Of a DNA stretch of 64,000 bases, positions 13,442-46,370 are shown piece by piece (within the stretch, counting starts at the first letter, position 1; the number at the start of each line of letters is the position of its first letter). The position numbers and the translations under genes are program-made. Where the stretch lies: positions 238,200 through 302,199 of the forward strand of contig NZ_FMUX01000003.1 of assembly GCF_900101345.1 (NCBI RefSeq), given 5' to 3'. The notes below the pieces were generated by a model. That model was given only the letters and a program-made list of their open reading frames with translations. It did not search any database and was not told where the DNA came from. This stretch comes from Desulfoluna spongiiphila (GTDB lineage Bacteria > Desulfobacterota > Desulfobacteria > Desulfobacterales > Desulfolunaceae).

Positions 13442-13568
13442 AGGGAAGCGCCTTTCATGAGGTTCACCCGGGTAAATGCAGCCGCAAGAGATTCATACGA
13501 AAGATAAAATCATTGATCAACAGAAAAGGCACCTGTTCCAGACCACAACGCGAAAAACCGGGCCGGAA

Positions 13569-14117
13569 TCAGCAGTACTGCACGTAGTTCTCGATTTTGT
13601 TCCGAAGCCTCTCGGCCAGGGTCGCATTGGCCGGACCAAGGGCGTCAAGGATGGTTTTCGCCTCGTCCCGGTAAAACGAGATCTTCTCCCGGTTCCAGTG
13701 GGAAGGTGGGGCCTGGAGGTTGGTGATGCGGTCGGCAAGCTTGACCATCCACACCTCTTTGGGCTGTTGCCGGATACGAACGAGGCTGTCGGCCATCTGT
13801 TCGCGCTTGCCGGGCAACCCCTTGTCCTTGGACAAAGCCTGGACGCCTTTCGCCACCTCAGCGCCAAACCCCTCGACCACCGTCTCAAAGGAGATGTCGG
13901 TGTCTTCGATGGTGTCGTGCAGCAGCGCGCAGAGTACGGCAAGATTGGGGTTGTCGGTACAGGCGGGATCTGAGGTGATGGCGGCCATCACCTCCATGGA
14001 AACCGTACCGATGTGGTTGATGTAGGCAATATCGGTGCCGGGCATGGTCTGCCCGTTGTGTGCCTTTGAGGCAAAATTCCAGGCGGCAAGGATAAGATCC
14101 TGATTCCAGACAGTCAT
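13569..14117 (-). CDS. HD-domain small alarmone hydrolase (MESH1/SpoT-like)
   Basis: A 182-residue HD-superfamily phosphohydrolase related to the hydrolase half of SpoT and to MESH1, which removes pyrophosphate from (p)ppGpp. Metal and catalytic residues appear in order: HNGQ, YINHIGTV, LLHDTIEDTD (HD and ED pairs) and KLADRITNL. No synthetase, TGS or ACT domain is attached. The start at 14117 (MTVWNQD) removes an unsupported 25-residue extension. The YciI gene lies just upstream on the same strand, so co-transcription is likely. Action on other nucleotides, such as NADPH, cannot be excluded. Confidence 0.88.
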   Translation of the reverse strand: MTVWNQDLILAAWNFASKAHNGQTMPGTDIAYINHIGTVSMEVMAAITSDPACTDNPNLAVLCALLHDTIEDTDISFETVVEGFGAEVAKGVQALSKDKGLPGKREQMADSLVRIRQQPKEVWMVKLADRITNLQAPPSHWNREKISFYRDEAKTILDALGPANATLAERLRNKIENYVQYC

Positions 14118-14142
14118 GGGTACAATCCTTAAAAAATAAAGG

Positions 14143-14433
14143 TTATGTCGGCAGCAGGCACTCGAAGCCGTCGCCCGCCATGGAGGGGACAAACTCCGTC
14201 ACCTCATAGCGTGCCACGCCCTCGGTGTAAAAGGGGTCCTCGGCCAGCACGGCATCAAGGGCCTCCCTGGAAGGCATGTCCGCAAGGACCACTCCACCGG
14301 TACGGGGCACCTTGCGGCCGGAGGCGATGAAGTGGCCTTTTTCATACTGTTTTTTGAGAAAAACGACGTGGGCGTCCAAGTGTGCGTCTACTTTGTCCAT
14401 CTCGCACACATAGGTCAGGGAAACAATATACAT
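14143..14433 (-). CDS. YciI-like protein
   Basis: A 96-residue protein of the YCII family, a small ferredoxin-like fold. The characteristic opening is MYIVSLTYVCEMDKVDAHLDAH, with a His in DAHLDAH, followed by GHFIASGRKVPRTGGVVL and a LAEDPFYTEGV segment, all expected in the family. Members are proposed to be small enzymes or dehydrochlorinase-like proteins, but most are uncharacterised. It ends 26 bases before the alarmone hydrolase start on the same strand. Confidence 0.82.
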   Translation of the reverse strand: MYIVSLTYVCEMDKVDAHLDAHVVFLKKQYEKGHFIASGRKVPRTGGVVLADMPSREALDAVLAEDPFYTEGVARYEVTEFVPSMAGDGFECLLPT

Positions 14434-14589
14434 TGGGTGGTCCTTTGCATCTTTATCCTATCACGAAAACGGGGGGACTTGAATTTGCAAGCCGTTCCTC
14501 CGTGCCCCTGGGCTTCCTAAGGAAGCCAGGCATCACAACGGCACAAGGGAACCACAGACAAAGCAAAGCTTCAAGGATTTCCTTCCACG

Positions 14590-14623
14590 AAAAAAGGGGC
14601 TGCCAGGCAGAGCAAGCCCCTTT
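14590..14623 (-). terminator. Terminator of the chemoreceptor gene at 14677
   Basis: On the minus strand, AAAGGGGCT pairs with AGCCCCTTT (14593-14601 with 14615-14623) and runs into a T tract, about 54 bases beyond the stop codon. Confidence 0.7.
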
Positions 14624-14676
14624 CCTCACCAAAGGTTTATTGAATGCACGGGCCAAGGCCCTTCACGGCCTCTTCC

Positions 14677-16305
14677 CTACAGGCGGAACTGGCCCACGGC
14701 GGTCTGCAGCTCTTCGGAGAGGCGGTTGAGGGTAAAGGACTCCGAGGCCACTTTGGAGCTGCCCTCATTGATCCCTGTGGTCTCCCGGTTCAGTTCGGTG
14801 ATATCGTGGGCCACGCTGCCCACAGCCACCGAGGTATCGGCAATGTTGGCCGCCACTTCCTGGATGCCCAGGGAAGCCTGCCCGATATTCTCGGAGATTT
14901 CGCGGGTGGTGACGGACTGGTCTTCCACGGCGGCGGAGATGCCCCCCACCACTTCGTTGATGCCGTGGACCACCTCGTTGATGCCCGTTACTTCGCTGAC
15001 GGCATCCCGGGTGGCCTCCTGGATCATGCTCACCTGGGTGCGGATATCTCCGGTGGCTGCTGCGGTCTGGCGGGCCAGCTCCTTGATCTCGTTTGCCACG
15101 ACGGCAAACCCCCTGCCCGCGTCACCGGCACGGGCGGCCTCGATGGTGGCGTTTAAGGCCAGCAGGTTGGTCTGCTCGGAGATTTCGGTGATGGCTTCGG
15201 TGACGTTGCCGATCTCCTTGGCCGCCTCGCCCAGGGAAGCGATGCGGGTGGCCGAGGACTCGGCCTGGTTTACGGCCTGTGCGGTGATTTCCGTGGCCTT
15301 GCCCGTACTTCCGGCGATCTCGCCGATGGTCTCCATCATCTGCCCGGCGGACTCCGCCACAATGCCGACGTTGGTGGAAGCCTCTTCAATGGCGGCTGCC
15401 ACGGAGTTCATGTTGCCGCTCATCTGCTCGGCGGACGCGGCCACGGACTGGGACTTTCCTGCGATGGACGACAGGCTCACATTCATGCCCCCTGAAAGGG
15501 TGCTCAGCTCGCCTGAGGTGACAAACAGGGTTTTCGAGTTGTCCACGACCCCCTGGAGCATCACCTTCATCTCTCCGGCCATGCCGTCGAGACTCCTGCC
15601 GATGCGTCCGAGTTCGTCGTCTCCGTCGATGCCGGAGGTGGCGTTTAAGTCACCGGAGCCCAGGCGGCTGGAGAACTTTTCCACCCGTGCAAGGCGGGTC
15701 AACAGCCCGAAGGTCATGCGGATGCCGAGGAGCATGACCAGAAACCCCACGGCGACCCCGCCGATCTGAAGGGTGTAGAGAAGGGAGAGTTTTTTCTCGG
15801 AGGCCTTCTGCATCAGGAGCACAGCCTTGTTCATCTCCCCCAACAGGGCAAGGTTATTGGCCTTGACCCAGGCAAGGCTGTCGTCAGCCCCGCTGCCCCC
15901 TGAGACAATGGTCTCAAGGTGGCCGTAAAAAGCGTCCCAGAGGGAGGAGACCTTTTCAAGCCGGTGGCGCACCTCCCCGCGGGCTGCGGGGCAATGGCGG
16001 AATGCCGTGGTGTTCAGGTTCAGGGTGAGAGGAGCGTTGCCGGAGTCGGTGAGGGCCTTTAAGGTTAGATCGAACACCTTGGCCGTGTTGCGGATGGTGC
16101 CCGCAAGGGAGGCATCGGAGGTGGACGTGTAATCAAGGATCTCCTTGGTCATTTTCTGGGTCAGCATACGCTGCCGGCCCGCCAGGTTGATGACGAGTCC
16201 GTCGTCTTTCATCCGTCCGGACACCACCACGGTGGAGCAAAACATAAACACAACAATCACCGAAAACCCAACCATCAAAAGCGTCTGCCTGGCCTTGATA
16301 CTCAT
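14677..16305 (-). CDS. Methyl-accepting chemotaxis protein with PilJ/NarX-like sensor
   Basis: A 542-residue chemoreceptor. After the first membrane helix ([19 protein letters not shown]) the periplasmic part begins [19 protein letters not shown], the signature of the type IV pili methyl-accepting/NarX-like sensor domain. A second membrane helix ([18 protein letters not shown]), HAMP and the signalling domain follow. The tip is [19 protein letters not shown], the same class as the receptors at 10864 and 27723. The last residues ([11 protein letters not shown]) resemble other receptor tails and do not form a classic CheR-tethering pentapeptide. A terminator follows at 14590-14623. Confidence 0.93.
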
Positions 16306-17074
16306 CTTTTCAAACTCCGCTGCAACTTATTTTTAGTATACATACCTGTCTCACCCGTTGTGACACAGATCAACCCTGATCCATCGGCATCCCGGAAGGG
16401 GCCTCCTGCCCACTGTTTCACTTATCACTTATACTTTTTCGTTATATCAACAACTATGCCAGCCCTGCCTTTTCCTTCCTCAAAAAGACAAAAACACACC
16501 ACCGAGCGGGCCGTCTGTCCACCCGACCGCAAGGCCGACCGGCCCGCCCTGCAAAATACTTAAGATGACATATCAACCCCTTACCATGGATGCGCGTTGC
16601 TTCACCCCGCCGACAGGGAGCGGTCAACCGACATGAATGCCCATCGTTGCCGAAAGGCTTCGACCGGTTCACCAAAGCCGTCAAACCTGTCCCACCCCGT
16701 CCAATTTCAAGCAGATCTGTATCACACCCCACCTGGCACACCCCTTATTTTTATTTATGAACCCGGCAACAGGCGACATGTGCACCCACCACATGGAGCC
16801 CCATTGTTTCTCAGGATGGCATCCGTCCTCGACGGCCCAGCCTTTACCCCCCGGATTCTTAAAAAACTCCGGCCGGTGGGCATCCCCGGGGAGCAGGCCT
16901 GGCGCGGTCCGTTTTTCCATGATAAATTATTGAATCAGGGATCATTTTTTCCTGTCTTTCACCCCGGTAAAATATTATAAACCAAGGTCAGGCAAGGGAC
17001 ACGGACGTGACAGGGTGCACCATACGACACCCGTTGCCTCCACGACGCCCCCATCCATTCTTAAGGAAAGTGAC
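16306..17074. other. 769-base divergent intergenic region
   Basis: It separates a minus-strand chemoreceptor from plus-strand hemolysin III and must hold both promoters. AT-rich sequence GTATACATAC near 16337 and TATTATAAACC near 16972 are candidate -10 areas, but I find no well-spaced -35 boxes. The open frames here lack protein-like features. Confidence 0.4.
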
Positions 17075-17725
17075 ATGGGAATCAAAACTCAGGAATCATT
17101 CAACTTCTATTCACACCTCGCAGGAGCCGTGGCCTCCCTCGTGGGAACCGTCTACCTCCTCCGGATCGCCAGCCACTCCGCATCCATGATGATCACGGCC
17201 CTTGTCTACGCCCTCTCCCTGGTCTTTCTCTTTTCGGCCAGCTCCCTGTACCACGCGTTTAAAAAGCAGGAAAATGAGCTCTCCTTCTGGCGAAAAATGG
17301 ACCGCCTGGCTATTTTCTTCATGATCGCGGGAACCTACACCCCCATCAGCTACTTCTGCCTTGAGGGCAACACCCGGTGGTTCATGATCGCCTTTCAGTG
17401 GAGCGTCGTGGGCTTCGGCCTGGTCTCGCAGCTCTTCTTCCCCAGGGCCCCCAGGGCCCTTTACGCCATCATCTACAGTGCCATGGGGTGGTCGGCGGTC
17501 TTTCCCATCAAGCAGGTCCTGGCCAACCTCTCCACCGGACAGGCGGTCCTGCTCTTCACCGGCGGCGCCTCCTTCACGGCAGGGGCCCTCATCTACGCCA
17601 TCAAAAAACCCCGCCTCGTCCCGGGGATCTTCAGTTTCCATGAACTCTTTCACATCATGGTCCTTTTGGGGGGAGTCCTCCATTACGCCCTGATCTACCG
17701 GGTCTACGCCACATCCCTTGCGTAA
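17075..17725 (+). CDS. Hemolysin III / PAQR-family membrane protein
   Basis: A 216-residue integral membrane protein with seven predicted helices, YqfA/HlyIII type. Family zinc-site motifs are present: SSLYHAF after helix 2 (Ser-x3-His), D in KMDRLAIFF, and the C-terminal HELFHIMV (His-x3-His). By analogy to PAQR receptors it may be a membrane-embedded zinc hydrolase; haemolysis is not implied. The start at 17075 has AAGGAAAG upstream. An esterase gene follows 83 bases later on the same strand. Confidence 0.92.
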   Translation: MGIKTQESFNFYSHLAGAVASLVGTVYLLRIASHSASMMITALVYALSLVFLFSASSLYHAFKKQENELSFWRKMDRLAIFFMIAGTYTPISYFCLEGNTRWFMIAFQWSVVGFGLVSQLFFPRAPRALYAIIYSAMGWSAVFPIKQVLANLSTGQAVLLFTGGASFTAGALIYAIKKPRLVPGIFSFHELFHIMVLLGGVLHYALIYRVYATSLA

Positions 17726-17808
17726 CCGACCCCTGGACAGTTGATTTCACAGCACGCCAAGCAAAGACAGGAAAACCAGACGCATTGATTGAATCACGGA
17801 GAGAACAG

Positions 17809-18672
17809 GTGGAAAGCCGGGAATGGGAGACCCTCGCCCTTAAAGAGATGCTCCGCTTTTACGAGGAGTATGAGACCTTCGCTGAGGAAGGCGTATCCAA
17901 ACCACGGGACATCGGCGCGCCCGTGTTCCTTCATCACCCAGACGCCCACATCGGCATCCTCCTCATCCACGGCTTCATGGCCGCCCCCGAGGAGGTAAGA
18001 GAGTGGGCCGAGTGCCTCTACGAAAAGGGGTACACGGTGTACGCCCCCAGGCTGGCCGGCCACGGCACCTCCCCTGCAGACCTTGCCGGGCGCACCTGCG
18101 ACGAATGGATGGACTCCGTGGACCGGGGCCATGCCATCCTCAAGGGGTGCTGCCCCCACATCGTGGTGGCGGGCTTTTCCACCGGTGCCGGCCTGGCCCT
18201 GGCCCAGGCCCTGTTCAAGCCGGAAGCCTTTCAGGCCGTCATCTCCGTGAGCGCCCCTTTGAAATTCAAAAGCCCGTCCGTCGCAGGTGCGGAAGCCTTA
18301 AACGACTGGAACCGGCTCTGCCGGGCCCTGGGCCTTTCCTGGTTCGCAAAAGAATTTGTAACCAACCACGCGGACAACCCCCACATCAACTACCTGAAAA
18401 GCCCCATCGCCGGCCTCGTCCAGGTCAAGGCCCTGATGAACAGGGTGTGGAAAAAGCTCCCGGCCCTTTCCGCCCCAGCCCTCATCGTCCAGGGAAAAGG
18501 CGACCCCAAGGTGAGCGACAAAAGCGGCCAAAAGATCTTCACCCGCATCTGCCACGACAACAAAACCTACCGGGAAATCCCCTTTCACCTCCACGGCATC
18601 GTCCGCGGCCCCATCGCCCTTGAACTCTTTGACGAAGTAAACCAGTTCCTGGACAACCTGGAAACGCCGTAA
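17809..18672 (+). CDS. Alpha/beta hydrolase (carboxylesterase/lipase-like)
   Basis: A cytoplasmic serine hydrolase of about 287 residues. The oxyanion region reads LLIHGFMAAPEEV, and the nucleophile elbow is GFSTGAG (Ser about residue 124), followed by a C-terminal DPKVSD acid region and an FHLHGI histidine, in the order expected for an Est/monoglyceride-lipase-like triad. The best start is GTG 17809 behind GGAGAG; TTG 17785 is an alternative. The N-terminal 30 residues are acidic and helical, and no signal peptide is seen. The substrate is unknown. Confidence 0.85.
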   Translation: MESREWETLALKEMLRFYEEYETFAEEGVSKPRDIGAPVFLHHPDAHIGILLIHGFMAAPEEVREWAECLYEKGYTVYAPRLAGHGTSPADLAGRTCDEWMDSVDRGHAILKGCCPHIVVAGFSTGAGLALAQALFKPEAFQAVISVSAPLKFKSPSVAGAEALNDWNRLCRALGLSWFAKEFVTNHADNPHINYLKSPIAGLVQVKALMNRVWKKLPALSAPALIVQGKGDPKVSDKSGQKIFTRICHDNKTYREIPFHLHGIVRGPIALELFDEVNQFLDNLETP

Positions 18673-34343: not shown

Positions 34344-35054
34344 ATGAACCACCCCGACATCGACACCTACAAACAGGACCTGGCCGTGTTTCGCATCCGG
34401 GATTTGAACGCCCCCTGGCGGGAGATCCTGGACAGGGGAGAGCGAAAAATCCTGCCCAGGCACCACGAGCTGAGCAACGCCGACGAAAGCACCTTTTTCT
34501 TCCTCAACCGGGGCACCCTTCACCTCTCCTGTATCGCCGAGGACGGCCAGGAACGGGTGGTGATGATCATGGAGGAGGGAGTCCTCTTCGGTGAGATCAC
34601 CTTCATGCACAAATCCAGCGTCCATTTCCACAGCCTGCGCACCTTAACGGAGTGCGAGATCATCGTCTTTCCCAACACCCTTTTGGACGACCTGGCCTTC
34701 TGTCGGGAATACCCCCATCTTGTCCTCAACCTCGTCAAGTCCCTGGGTGTCAAAGGCGGGGCGTTTTTCAGCCAGATTTACGACTCCAACCTCCTGGACG
34801 CCCGGGGACAGATCTGCCGGATGCTCTCCCACATCTGGCGAGAGCAGGGGGAAAAGGAGACCGTCAACCCCGACCTCTCCCAGGTGGACATGGCCAATAT
34901 CCTGGGCATCCACCGAAGCAGCGTCTGCCGCGTTATCCACGAGCTGCGGGACGAAGGGGTTATCGGCCGGTTTTCCAAGACCCGCCTGGAGGTCCTGGCC
35001 CCCATCAAACTCATGGAACACGGCAAGATCCTCTGCCTTCTCGCCCCCGAATAA
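34344..35054 (+). CDS. Crp/Fnr-family transcriptional regulator
   Basis: A 236-residue regulator. The N-terminal cupin-like sensor domain (FFFLNRGTLHLSC ... VLFGEITFMH) is followed by the dimer helix and a C-terminal winged helix (VDMANILGIHRSSVCRVIHEL). There is no N-terminal four-cysteine cluster, so it is not an Fe-S FNR, and the phosphate-binding RSxA-type cAMP motif is not evident. It lies 317 bases upstream of a four-gene operon on the same strand whose leader has an inverted repeat, so it may control that operon. Confidence 0.92.
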   Translation: MNHPDIDTYKQDLAVFRIRDLNAPWREILDRGERKILPRHHELSNADESTFFFLNRGTLHLSCIAEDGQERVVMIMEEGVLFGEITFMHKSSVHFHSLRTLTECEIIVFPNTLLDDLAFCREYPHLVLNLVKSLGVKGGAFFSQIYDSNLLDARGQICRMLSHIWREQGEKETVNPDLSQVDMANILGIHRSSVCRVIHELRDEGVIGRFSKTRLEVLAPIKLMEHGKILCLLAPE

Positions 35055-35176
35055 CCCATAGACCTGTCGCCTTCCCATGGCACATCCCCATCCTTAGCCA
35101 GCCCTTTTGACTCTTTGAGGCCCTGTCTCTGGCCGTGGCCGTCCTTGGTCTCCTTTCCGGCTGTCCGACCCGCCCC

Positions 35177-35205
35177 TCTTTAATCAAAATTATTGATGAT
35201 ATAAT
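35177..35205 (+). promoter_or_regulatory. Possible regulated promoter of the sulfatase-like operon
   Basis: A perfect TATAAT (35200-35205) has only a poor -35 (TCTTTA) 17 bases upstream, suggesting activator dependence. The inverted repeat ATCAA-AATTA-TTGAT (35183-35197) fills the spacer and is a candidate site for the neighbouring Crp/Fnr protein. Nothing else notable is seen in 35055-35371. Confidence 0.45.
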
Positions 35206-35371
35206 TCAGTCAATTTTCAAAAAGTGTCTCATGTGAAGCAGAATTTTTCCGCCGGATGCCCTACCCTTTCCCCATTGTCAAACAGGTCCGCGGCGAGCCC
35301 GCAACGCTCCCGCCACCGGCAGGCATCACCCGCCGGACAGACAGACCACCTATCGTGCCGAGGAAACACAC

Positions 35372-36895
35372 ATGGCTTTCAACCGAGACAAGATCAAAAA
35401 CGTCGTCTTCATCATGCTGGACACCCTGCAGTTCAACTACCTGGGGTGCTACGGCAACGATAAGATCAAAACCCCCAATATCGACCGCTTCGCACGCCAG
35501 GCGACCCTCTTTGAGAACGCCTACAGCGAAGGGCTCCCCACCATACCCGTACGACGCGCCCTCATGACGGGCCGGTTCACCCTTCCCTACGGCGGCTGGG
35601 AGCCCCTCGCAGGTGACGACACCACCCTCACCGACATCATGTGGGGCAAGAACATGCAGACCGCCCTCATCTACGACACCGCCCCCATGCGGCTGCCCAA
35701 GTTCGGCTACTCCCGAGGCTTTGACTTCGTGGATTTCTGTCCCGGTCAGGAGCTGGACCACACCTCCTTTGCCGATGTTCCCCTGGACCCGGCCATGAAG
35801 CCCGAAGACTTCACCTCCGCCTCCATGGTGTGGGACAAGGAAGGCAACCTCATCGACGACGACAGCAAGCAGCTCTTAGACGAAATCGGCTGCTTTCTCC
35901 GCCAGCAGCAGCACAGGCGCACCGACGCCGACAGCTACGTGGCCCGGGTGGTCAACCGCACCGTGGACTGGCTCAAGACACGCCGGGACAAGGAGCGCCC
36001 CTTCTTCCTCTGGGTGGACTCCTTTGATCCCCACGAGCCCTGGGATCCCCCATCGGTCTGGAAAGGGGAACCCTGCCCCTACGACCCGGACTACGAAGGC
36101 AACCCCATCCTCCTTGCCCCCTGGACCCCGGTGGAGGGCCGCATCACAGAACGTGAGTGCGAGCACATCCGCGCCCTTTATATGGAGAAGATCACCCTGG
36201 TGGACGAGTGGATCGGAAAGGTTCTCGACAGTATCCGCACCCAGGGCCTCTGGGACGAGACCATGGTGGTCCTCATGTCCGACCACGGCCAGCCCATGGG
36301 CACCGGCGAGCACGGCCACGGCATCGTGCGTAAATCCCGCCCCTGGCCCTACGAAGAACTGGTCCACGTGCCCCTGATGATGCACATCCCAGGCGTTGAA
36401 GGCGGCCAGCGCGTCAAAAGCTTTGTCCAGAACGTAGACGTCACCGCCACCATCATGGATGTCATGGGCCTGCTCGACACCGAAAGCGGCGTCAGTGACC
36501 ACGGCATGAACACCTTCGGGGCCGAAGAGTTCCAGGGCGAAAGCCTGTTGCCCCTCATGCAGGGCGAGGTGGAGAAAATCAGAGATTTTGCCATCGCAGG
36601 CTACTACGGCATGTCCTGGTCCATCATCACCGAAGAGCACAGCTACGTGCACTGGCTGGTGGACGAAGAGGAGAAAAACAGCGTCGACTGCGTGGCCGGT
36701 TCCGAAAAGACCATGGACGAGGAGATGTGGACCTGCACCGCAGGGGCCAAAGTAGAGATGCCCGAACACAACGAGCTCTACGACCGCAAGGCCGACCCCT
36801 TCCAGCTCAACAACATCGCAGCCGACAACCCCGAAAAAGCCGAAGAGCTGCTCCAGAAGCTGAAACTCTTCATCGGCGAGCTGCGCACGACGTAA
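35372..36895 (+). CDS. Sulfatase-fold (alkaline phosphatase superfamily) hydrolase with Thr at the nucleophile position
   Basis: A 507-residue soluble protein of the sulfatase family (PF00884), without signal peptide. Metal-site segments are recognisable: MLDTLQFNYLGCYG at the N-terminus, VDSFDPHEPWDPP, and MSDHGQPMGTGEHGHG. The sulfatase signature, normally CxPxR with Cys converted to formylglycine, reads TIPVRRALMTGR, so the nucleophile position is Thr. Thr or Ser nucleophiles are standard in phosphoesterase members of this superfamily, so phosphoester, phosphodiester or phosphonate chemistry is more likely than formylglycine sulfatase activity. It is the first gene of a group with a thioredoxin, a thioredoxin reductase-like protein and an SLC13 transporter. 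Confidence 0.88.
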   Translation: MAFNRDKIKNVVFIMLDTLQFNYLGCYGNDKIKTPNIDRFARQATLFENAYSEGLPTIPVRRALMTGRFTLPYGGWEPLAGDDTTLTDIMWGKNMQTALIYDTAPMRLPKFGYSRGFDFVDFCPGQELDHTSFADVPLDPAMKPEDFTSASMVWDKEGNLIDDDSKQLLDEIGCFLRQQQHRRTDADSYVARVVNRTVDWLKTRRDKERPFFLWVDSFDPHEPWDPPSVWKGEPCPYDPDYEGNPILLAPWTPVEGRITERECEHIRALYMEKITLVDEWIGKVLDSIRTQGLWDETMVVLMSDHGQPMGTGEHGHGIVRKSRPWPYEELVHVPLMMHIPGVEGGQRVKSFVQNVDVTATIMDVMGLLDTESGVSDHGMNTFGAEEFQGESLLPLMQGEVEKIRDFAIAGYYGMSWSIITEEHSYVHWLVDEEEKNSVDCVAGSEKTMDEEMWTCTAGAKVEMPEHNELYDRKADPFQLNNIAADNPEKAEELLQKLKLFIGELRTT

Positions 36896-44486: not shown

Positions 44487-44845
44487 AAAACGAATGAAAC
44501 CACCATGCCTGAATGGCCGGAGACGATCCTCCGGCCCCGGGTATTCCGGCCTTCTTCCGTGCCACAATCCCCAAGGACATCAAGGCATTGCCTCACCCCG
44601 CCTTCTCTTTACTGATTTACTGAAAATAACCAGCCAAAATCGACCCATCATTTTTTTTCATCAAAGTCAAAACAAGCATTGACCAACAGTCAACTCATAT
44701 GGTTTATATCTAACTAGGACAGCAAAAAGATTGCCAGATAACGCATTATGTTTGCTGGTTTTAATAGAAACCCAATTTCCTCAGAGTCCATACACTCTTT
44801 TTTCCCGACCACCCCTCGATCGCCTTTCGCCGTCGGGGCCGACGC

Positions 44846-44928
44846 TGGAAAAAGCCAAACCTGCTGTGAAGCAGGGACGGAAAGCCACGGATCTTCCCCG
44901 AAACGAAGACAGCCGGGTTACCCGAACG
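44846..44928 (+). ncRNA. Cyclic-di-GMP-I (GEMM-I) riboswitch
   Basis: The core matches the class I c-di-GMP aptamer. GCCAAAC leads into hairpin CCTGCT-GTGA-AGCAGG (44860-44875) with a GNRA tetraloop, then the near-consensus GGGACGGAAAGCC. The second hairpin begins ACGGATCTTC and closes GAAGACAGCCGGG, followed by GGGTTACCCG. GACGCAAAGCC and AGACAGCCGGGTT are the recognised family blocks; only one base of the former differs here (C to G). It lies 204 bases upstream of the HAD phosphatase start on the same strand. Confidence 0.85.
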
Positions 44929-45032
44929 ATGTCAACCGAAGGCCACCGGCCCCGCGCCGAGGCATCACCGACCGACATCCACGCGACAAGGCCCCCGGGT
45001 TATTCCTCGCACCGACTCCGTCAACACGCTGG

Positions 45033-45097
45033 GCAAAGAAGTGCCCCGGTTTGCTTTTTCCACAGCCTGCAGGATTAAAAAAGTCACGCACTTTTTT
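45033..45097 (+). promoter_or_regulatory. Candidate expression platform of the riboswitch
   Basis: Two possible stems precede the phosphatase gene: GCAAA/TTTGC (45033-45054) running into TTTTT, and AAAAAAGT/ACTTTTTT (45077-45097), which ends in six T residues. Either could be the terminator that the aptamer controls. Both are weak, so the mechanism is uncertain. Confidence 0.4.
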
Positions 45098-45131
45098 ATA
45101 AACCGCACGATGATAAGGAGAAGAAGCAGAC

Positions 45132-46193
45132 ATGACACGGTTTCACAACGTCGCTCTCTTTGCAGGGATCCTCATCTTCCTGGCCTGCACCGCCCATGCC
45201 ACGGAGCTCACGCACTGGCCCCGGGCAGAGCGCCACAAGCTCATCCGCCTCATTGAACGCAATGCCTACCAGGGAAAATTCGCGGTCTTTGACTGCGACA
45301 ACACCGTCTGGTACCAAAAATTGGAAGAGTCCCTGCTGCCCTACCTGGAAAACAAAGGGCTCATGGGCCCGGAGGCCCTTGCCCCGTCCCTGAAAGTCAT
45401 CCCTTTTCTCCCGGACGATACCCTCACCTCCTATGCCTGCAGGCTCTACGATATCGACAACAAGGTGGGCTCCCCCTGGATGGCCCGGGTCTTTGCCGGG
45501 TTTACATTAGAAGAGCTCAAGGGGCACGTGGACGATCTCTTTGCTCTGAACGGGGCCAGCATCCCCGCCAAACACCGGCGCAACGGCGAGCTCGTAGACG
45601 TTGAGGTGGAGGCGCCCCGGATCTACCCCGGCATGCGGGAGCTGATCAACGCCATGCAGGAAAACGGCATTGAAGTGATCTTCATCTCCACGGCCCTGGA
45701 AGAGCTGGTCCGCATGGTGGCCTGCGACCCCAGGTACGGCCTCAACATCAAGCCCGAAAACGTCATCGGCGTCAGCACCCTGCTCAAGGATCGCGAAACC
45801 GGGGAAATCACCACGGCCCGTCTCCAGATTGAACGGGGTCACTTCTTCGATGAGACCTACCCCAAAGCAAGGCACATGGCCATGGAGCTGACCCCCACCC
45901 TGTGGAGCCCCAACACCATGTATTTCGGCAAGGTCTGGGCCATCAAAGACTATATCCACCCGGTCAACCGCCCGGTTCTGGTGGCCGGGGATTCCCCCAA
46001 CGACCACCCCATGCTCTTTGAGGCCGAAGAGTTCGGGGGCATCAAGCTCTGGATCAACCACAGGGAGGCCGACTGGAAGGCCACCAAAGAAGCCCGCAAG
46101 ATCCGAGCCCGGCAGCAGCAGGAGGCCTGGCACTATCCATCGGCCAACAAGCGCTGGCTCATGGTCCGACCCGCCGATATCGGCATTTTGTAA
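45132..46193 (+). CDS. Secreted HAD-superfamily phosphatase
   Basis: A 353-residue protein with a cleavable signal peptide (VALFAGILIFLACTAHA). The HAD nucleophile motif FDCDNTVW (DxDxT, residues about 54-58) is followed by motif II ISTA and motif III/IV VAGDSPNDHPML, so the phosphatase site is complete. The general layout resembles phosphoserine-phosphatase-like HAD enzymes with a helical cap. The start has AAGGAG upstream. It follows a c-di-GMP riboswitch, implying that extracytoplasmic phosphate release is tied to lifestyle switching. The substrate is unknown. Confidence 0.88.
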   Translation: MTRFHNVALFAGILIFLACTAHATELTHWPRAERHKLIRLIERNAYQGKFAVFDCDNTVWYQKLEESLLPYLENKGLMGPEALAPSLKVIPFLPDDTLTSYACRLYDIDNKVGSPWMARVFAGFTLEELKGHVDDLFALNGASIPAKHRRNGELVDVEVEAPRIYPGMRELINAMQENGIEVIFISTALEELVRMVACDPRYGLNIKPENVIGVSTLLKDRETGEITTARLQIERGHFFDETYPKARHMAMELTPTLWSPNTMYFGKVWAIKDYIHPVNRPVLVAGDSPNDHPMLFEAEEFGGIKLWINHREADWKATKEARKIRARQQQEAWHYPSANKRWLMVRPADIGIL

Positions 46194-46370
46194 CTCCGCT
46201 TTCCCGGGGAGCCGCGCACTTATCCGGGCACCATACGTATGCCGTCCCCACACGGCATCCCCCCCGATGGTGCCATATCCAGTGCCGGCTCCCCACTCCG
46301 TCCTCTCCCCCACTTGAGTATGAATGGGGAGGGGACGGAGCCCCTTCCCTTGTATTCATAACCATCTGGG

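Follow-up and report, generated by a model that had tools for sequence, protein, structure and literature searches.

A c-di-GMP-I riboswitch with a compensated base-pair swap lies ahead of a phosphorylcholine phosphatase homologue in Desulfoluna spongiiphila and may act as a translational OFF switch

A cmscan search of the window (the whole stretch of 64,000 nucleotides of Desulfoluna spongiiphila DNA analysed here) returned exactly one Rfam match, RF03167 at 44845–44926 with 69.1 bits (cut-off 59, E = 3e-14), on the forward strand like the leader elements, the gene and the possible terminator described below. An initial annotation had assigned this RNA to GEMM-I from a GNRA-capped hairpin and the blocks GGGACGGAAAGCC and AGACAGCCGGGTT, and all three are found as described, with the cap being GUGA at 44866–44869 and GGGACGGAAAGCC lying at 44874–44886. 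The proposed check against the Rfam GEMM-I model, RF01051, was run as a whole-genome search and gave 64.4 bits for this aptamer, above the family cut-off of 35; the genome carries eight GEMM-I aptamers. Judged by these scores and by order-wide covariation, 44845–44926 is a genuine member of the known riboswitch class c-di-GMP-I.

The next gene (45132–46193) begins 205 nt past the end of the aptamer and had been described as a signal-peptide HAD phosphatase, which is right about both the fold and the secretion, and the name can be narrowed to a homologue of the phosphorylcholine phosphatase PchP. The 353 aa product has a signal peptide, belongs to Pfam PF12710 and matches PchP of Pseudomonas aeruginosa (PDB 4as2) over residues 24–350, the full mature length, with E = 6.6e-89. 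The match begins at the same TEL.HWP mature end as 4as2, in agreement with Sec cleavage after AHA, and the HAD motifs are kept: DxDxT (D54/D56/T58), the Ser, K267 and GDSPND (D287/D291). By homology the gene thus encodes a full-length counterpart of periplasmic PchP, and the secreted enzyme probably frees choline from phosphocholine. The alkylammonium site of the P. aeruginosa protein (PDB 4as2/4as3) consists of E42, E43 and YYY82-84 (PMC3170909); both Glu are kept here, whereas YYY(82-84) is replaced by Y-A-C, making the exact substrate less certain. The two genes also differ in their control, as P. aeruginosa pchP is under GbdR and NtrC, without a riboswitch (PMC3170909). A possible intrinsic terminator with a weak tail lies 3′ of the gene at 46326–46349, found by a pattern scan whose site count is at chance level.

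The same gene is present at 78–81% identity in D. butyratoxydans, D. limicola and a Desulfoluna MAG, and two other Desulfoluna genomes do not have it. Looking for the pair in related genomes, as had been suggested, we found that each of the four Desulfoluna genomes with pchP carries the aptamer ahead of it. Outside the genus we rejected such an arrangement for the loci fetched around five homologues from other Desulfobacterota (43–61% identity), where the covariance model found no aptamer. In D. butyratoxydans the protein (L024:6001-7056) reads FACDNT in place of FDCDNT, without the nucleophile, and GASPSD where the motif GD should be; it may therefore be inactive, though its riboswitch is retained.

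The initial annotation had also pointed to a single change in a normally conserved block of the aptamer, where GACGCAAAG has become GACGGAAAG. This is position 46 changing from C to G in Vc2 numbering, which follows the published Vc2 and pilM structures. The change turned out to be double: in the 5′ strand, AAAGCCAAACC, position 21 (44855) is C in place of G, and as positions 21 and 46 pair with each other in helix 1 of the model, the pair is kept despite both changes. Among 122 distinct Desulfobacterales aptamers, a sample drawn mostly from RF03167 hits and so biased toward high scorers, the 21–46 pair is C-G in 91, G-C in 30, U-G in one and never unpaired. In alignment A2, with 102 distinct rows, the counts are 71 C-G, 30 G-C and one U-G, with 30 double changes, and all eight copies in the Desulfoluna genome have C-G. 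We therefore rejected GACGGAAAG as a lone pocket mutation, since the partner position co-changes in every sequence; on these alignments the change is a compensatory base-pair swap, lineage-wide in the order.

Around the swapped pair, the positions that contact the ligand are canonical. G20, C21 and C22 (44854–44856) hold the contact G20 at 44854 and the 5′ half of the pair; G45, G46, A47 and A48 (44879–44882) hold its 3′ half and the intercalating A47 at 44881; and the equivalent of C92, the Watson–Crick partner of one ligand guanine, is at 44921. Position 20 is G and position 47 is A in 122/122 aptamers, and position 92 is C with a single exception. The RNA thus shares its fold, conserved blocks and contact positions with the RF01051 aptamers Vc2 and Cd1, and differs from them in having C-G at 21–46 where they have G-C and a GUGA loop where they have GAAA. 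These two differences are coupled across alignment A2, as GAAA caps P2 in none of the 71 C-G aptamers, which have GYRA-type loops, compared with 28 of the 30 with G-C (Fisher p = 6e-23, computed on alignment rows that are uncorrected for the relatedness of the sequences). Three genomes carry both pair types, and the coupling possibly reflects two types of tertiary contact. In one genome of the sample (G115), three aptamers lie inside 1 kb (L055:738-809, 1501-1578 and 1606-1680), one of them with the U-G pair. Tandem GEMM-I arrays of four to five aptamers each were also seen in two other genera of the family (G017:C75:11273-11672, G017:C79:7082-7405, G082:C122:8549-8972 and G082:C136:52378-52727).

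For six of the seven other aptamers in the Desulfoluna genome the distance to a start codon is 20–40 nt. Four of these six (L002, L005, L006 and L008) have a 3′ strand of P1 that is complementary to sequence at the Shine-Dalgarno, as in GCCTTGAgccaacCAAGGAG, an anti-SD layout from which ON control would be expected. Judged from their sequences, the proteins they precede are PEP-CTERM and other secreted, surface-type proteins. The pchP copy, whose leader is roughly 200 nt long, stands apart, as its target is the only clear enzyme and it is the only copy with the element described next.

Three islands are common to the four pchP leaders, namely the aptamer, a 12-mer GGTTTGCTTTTT that we call S (45048–45059) and GGAGAARAAGCAGACATGA around the start codon, and the remainder has diverged. 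S and its parts are the only words of at least 7 bases common to the four spacers between the aptamer and the ribosome-binding site. S has two possible partners. The first is the 5′ strand of the aptamer, TGGAAAAAGCCAAACC (44846–44861), where pairing with GGAAAAAGC(C)AAACC is worth −15.8 to −22.4 kcal/mol in the four species; the second is the ribosome-binding site, AAGGAGAAGAAGCAGAC (45115–45131), with which S can form 12 contiguous pairs, including two G-U pairs, at −15.2 to −18.4. A local A/T-rich hairpin at 45077–45102 would be nested between S and the second partner when the four leaders are folded. Composition-matched shuffles of S reached the 5′-strand duplex in 0.04% of cases, the ribosome-binding-site duplex in 3% and both in 0.005%. 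When the 99 aptamers followed by enough DNA were ranked by 5′-strand complementarity, the four pchP leaders came out at 1, 2, 3 and 5, and none of the four has the 3′-strand complementarity used by 25 of the 99. Pairing of S with the ribosome-binding site is by itself not rare, as at least 12 contiguous pairs with S are possible in 7 of 223 SD-ATG contexts, the pchP start among them. With only four leader sequences and an invariant S, there is almost no covariation in these pairings.

When the aptamer was forced in the folding model, S paired with the ribosome-binding site at 0.82–0.90, and when S was forced onto the 5′ strand, the ribosome-binding site was unpaired at 0.41–0.62, though energy models of RNAs of 300 nt are rough. 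Together with the complementarity of S to both partners, these folds suggest a three-way switch, and we lean, with some reserve, towards a c-di-GMP-I riboswitch that controls the periplasmic phosphocholine phosphatase as a translational OFF switch. With the ligand absent, S would invade the single-stranded J1/2 and the aptamer 5′ strand and be held there, leaving the ribosome-binding site open and translation on. Binding of c-di-GMP would lock J1/2 and the 21-22/45-46 pairs, and the S thereby freed would fold onto the ribosome-binding site and stop translation. This direction of control is inferred. For two species, S on the ribosome-binding site is the fold favoured by the free-energy model even without ligand, so that switching would hinge on the order of folding. 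In Cd1 and pilM the 3′ side around the Watson–Crick C is sequestered (PMC9262584), whereas here the aptamer 5′ strand is predicted to be captured; the target is unusual, and the platform probably is as well.

The same pairing between S and the 5′ strand could instead be an intrinsic terminator (GCCAAACC/GGUUUGC, then U5) that forms without ligand and is prevented by c-di-GMP, making this a transcriptional ON switch and predicting the opposite sign to the translational OFF switch. In each of the four species S does finish on five or six T, and terminator-like hairpins follow closely behind other aptamers of the order, where the 3′-strand complementarity mentioned above is also seen. We nonetheless think this unlikely, as the stem is A-U rich and would enclose a loop of ~180–245 nt, a terminator scan yields no more sites than shuffles do, and this reading gives no reason for the complement conserved in the ribosome-binding site. 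A local terminator at 45031–45059 was rejected separately, the scan count being at chance level and the hairpin lacking conservation in the other three leaders. Somewhat less likely again is that the hairpin of S with the ribosome-binding site is a translation brake that is constitutive or answers another signal (e.g. sRNA, temperature or ribosome feedback), with the aptamer acting by an unseen route. This would fit the two species in which that hairpin is preferred with or without a forced aptamer, but each of the four species also has S matching the 5′ strand of its aptamer, which is unusual among the 99 aptamers.

Returning to the translational OFF switch, its expected ligand is c-di-GMP, predicted from the canonical contact positions G20, A47 and C92. 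The initial annotation had marked the changed block as worth checking for ligand preference; the change is real, and a ligand-changing role is unlikely for an order-wide compensated swap that keeps G20. The cGAMP aptamer of Geobacter (pilM type) is similar to ours in having C-G at the equivalent of 21–46 (C15-G40), and differs in having A14 at the specificity position where ours has G (PMC6274999), so the ligand cannot be told from the swap alone. In work on Cd1, the position of G20 was named as a factor in selectivity (PMC9262584). By the criterion of A at position 20, this aptamer with its G20 falls outside the cGAMP riboswitches (GEMM-Ib). The genome has 28 GGDEF hits, 21 with a readable GHxxG motif and seven that are divergent. 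Hypr enzymes have Ser at the D344-type position of GGDEF, and none of the 21 readable domains has this signature, all having D (one N) at that place.

It is improbable, then, that an altered pocket including the swapped pair gives the aptamer another ligand than c-di-GMP (e.g. cGAMP). The Geobacter C15-G40 pair and the higher score with a variant-class Rfam model would favour this, but it conflicts with G20 in all 122 aptamers, with the canonical A47 and C92, with the GGDEF residues above and with the targets of the other copies, which are typical for c-di-GMP. The variant model is RF03167 (c-di-GMP-I-GGC), which is the best-scoring Rfam model for this RNA but has G as its consensus at position 47, where this RNA and all 122 compared aptamers have A. 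We read GGC, from the Rfam consensus, as presumably G20, G47 and C92, and rejected it as the ligand class here, as the score passes but G47 is absent; the label does not suit these RNAs, and the order's aptamers match RF03167 by scaffold. We give only a slim chance to a related idea, that aptamers with C21-G46 and a GYRA loop make up a functional subtype whose ligand preference is different or relaxed, and that the pchP switch reads that signal; such aptamers dominate the Desulfobacterales sample, and the Geobacter cGAMP aptamer has the same inverted pair. Least probable of all is that the aptamer is in decay and has ceased to control pchP. Its P1 does retain only about two conserved G-C pairs, but few stretches of the leader are as well conserved across the four species as the aptamer.

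A role for the PchP homologue in choline release is plausible in light of the rest of the genome, in which two genes for choline TMA-lyase (CutC) score above the curated cut-off and a lipoprotein-like PchP paralogue (33%) lies ~14 kb upstream of one cutC (L212:1442-2701 and 13559-18649). The paralogue is preceded by a BMC-shell-like gene, and an aldehyde-dehydrogenase-like gene, the cutC and a cutD-like gene lie downstream, the shell-like, dehydrogenase-like and cutD-like neighbours being named by eye. Under the translational OFF switch, PchP would be made when c-di-GMP is low, in the motile, foraging state, and the choline gained would feed choline TMA-lyase. If this is right, c-di-GMP would be directly linked to phosphocholine or choline scavenging in a sulfate reducer with a choline TMA-lyase, and OFF control would sit in the same cell beside surface-protein genes under apparent ON control. 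It would also mean that a GEMM-I expression platform can read out the 5′ strand and not the usual 3′ strand, and that a suspected ligand-changing mutation is explained as a lineage-wide base-pair swap. Elsewhere in the window, ~8 kb upstream of the riboswitch, a gene for a Crp-type regulator is followed by a sulfatase-family gene (34344–36895).
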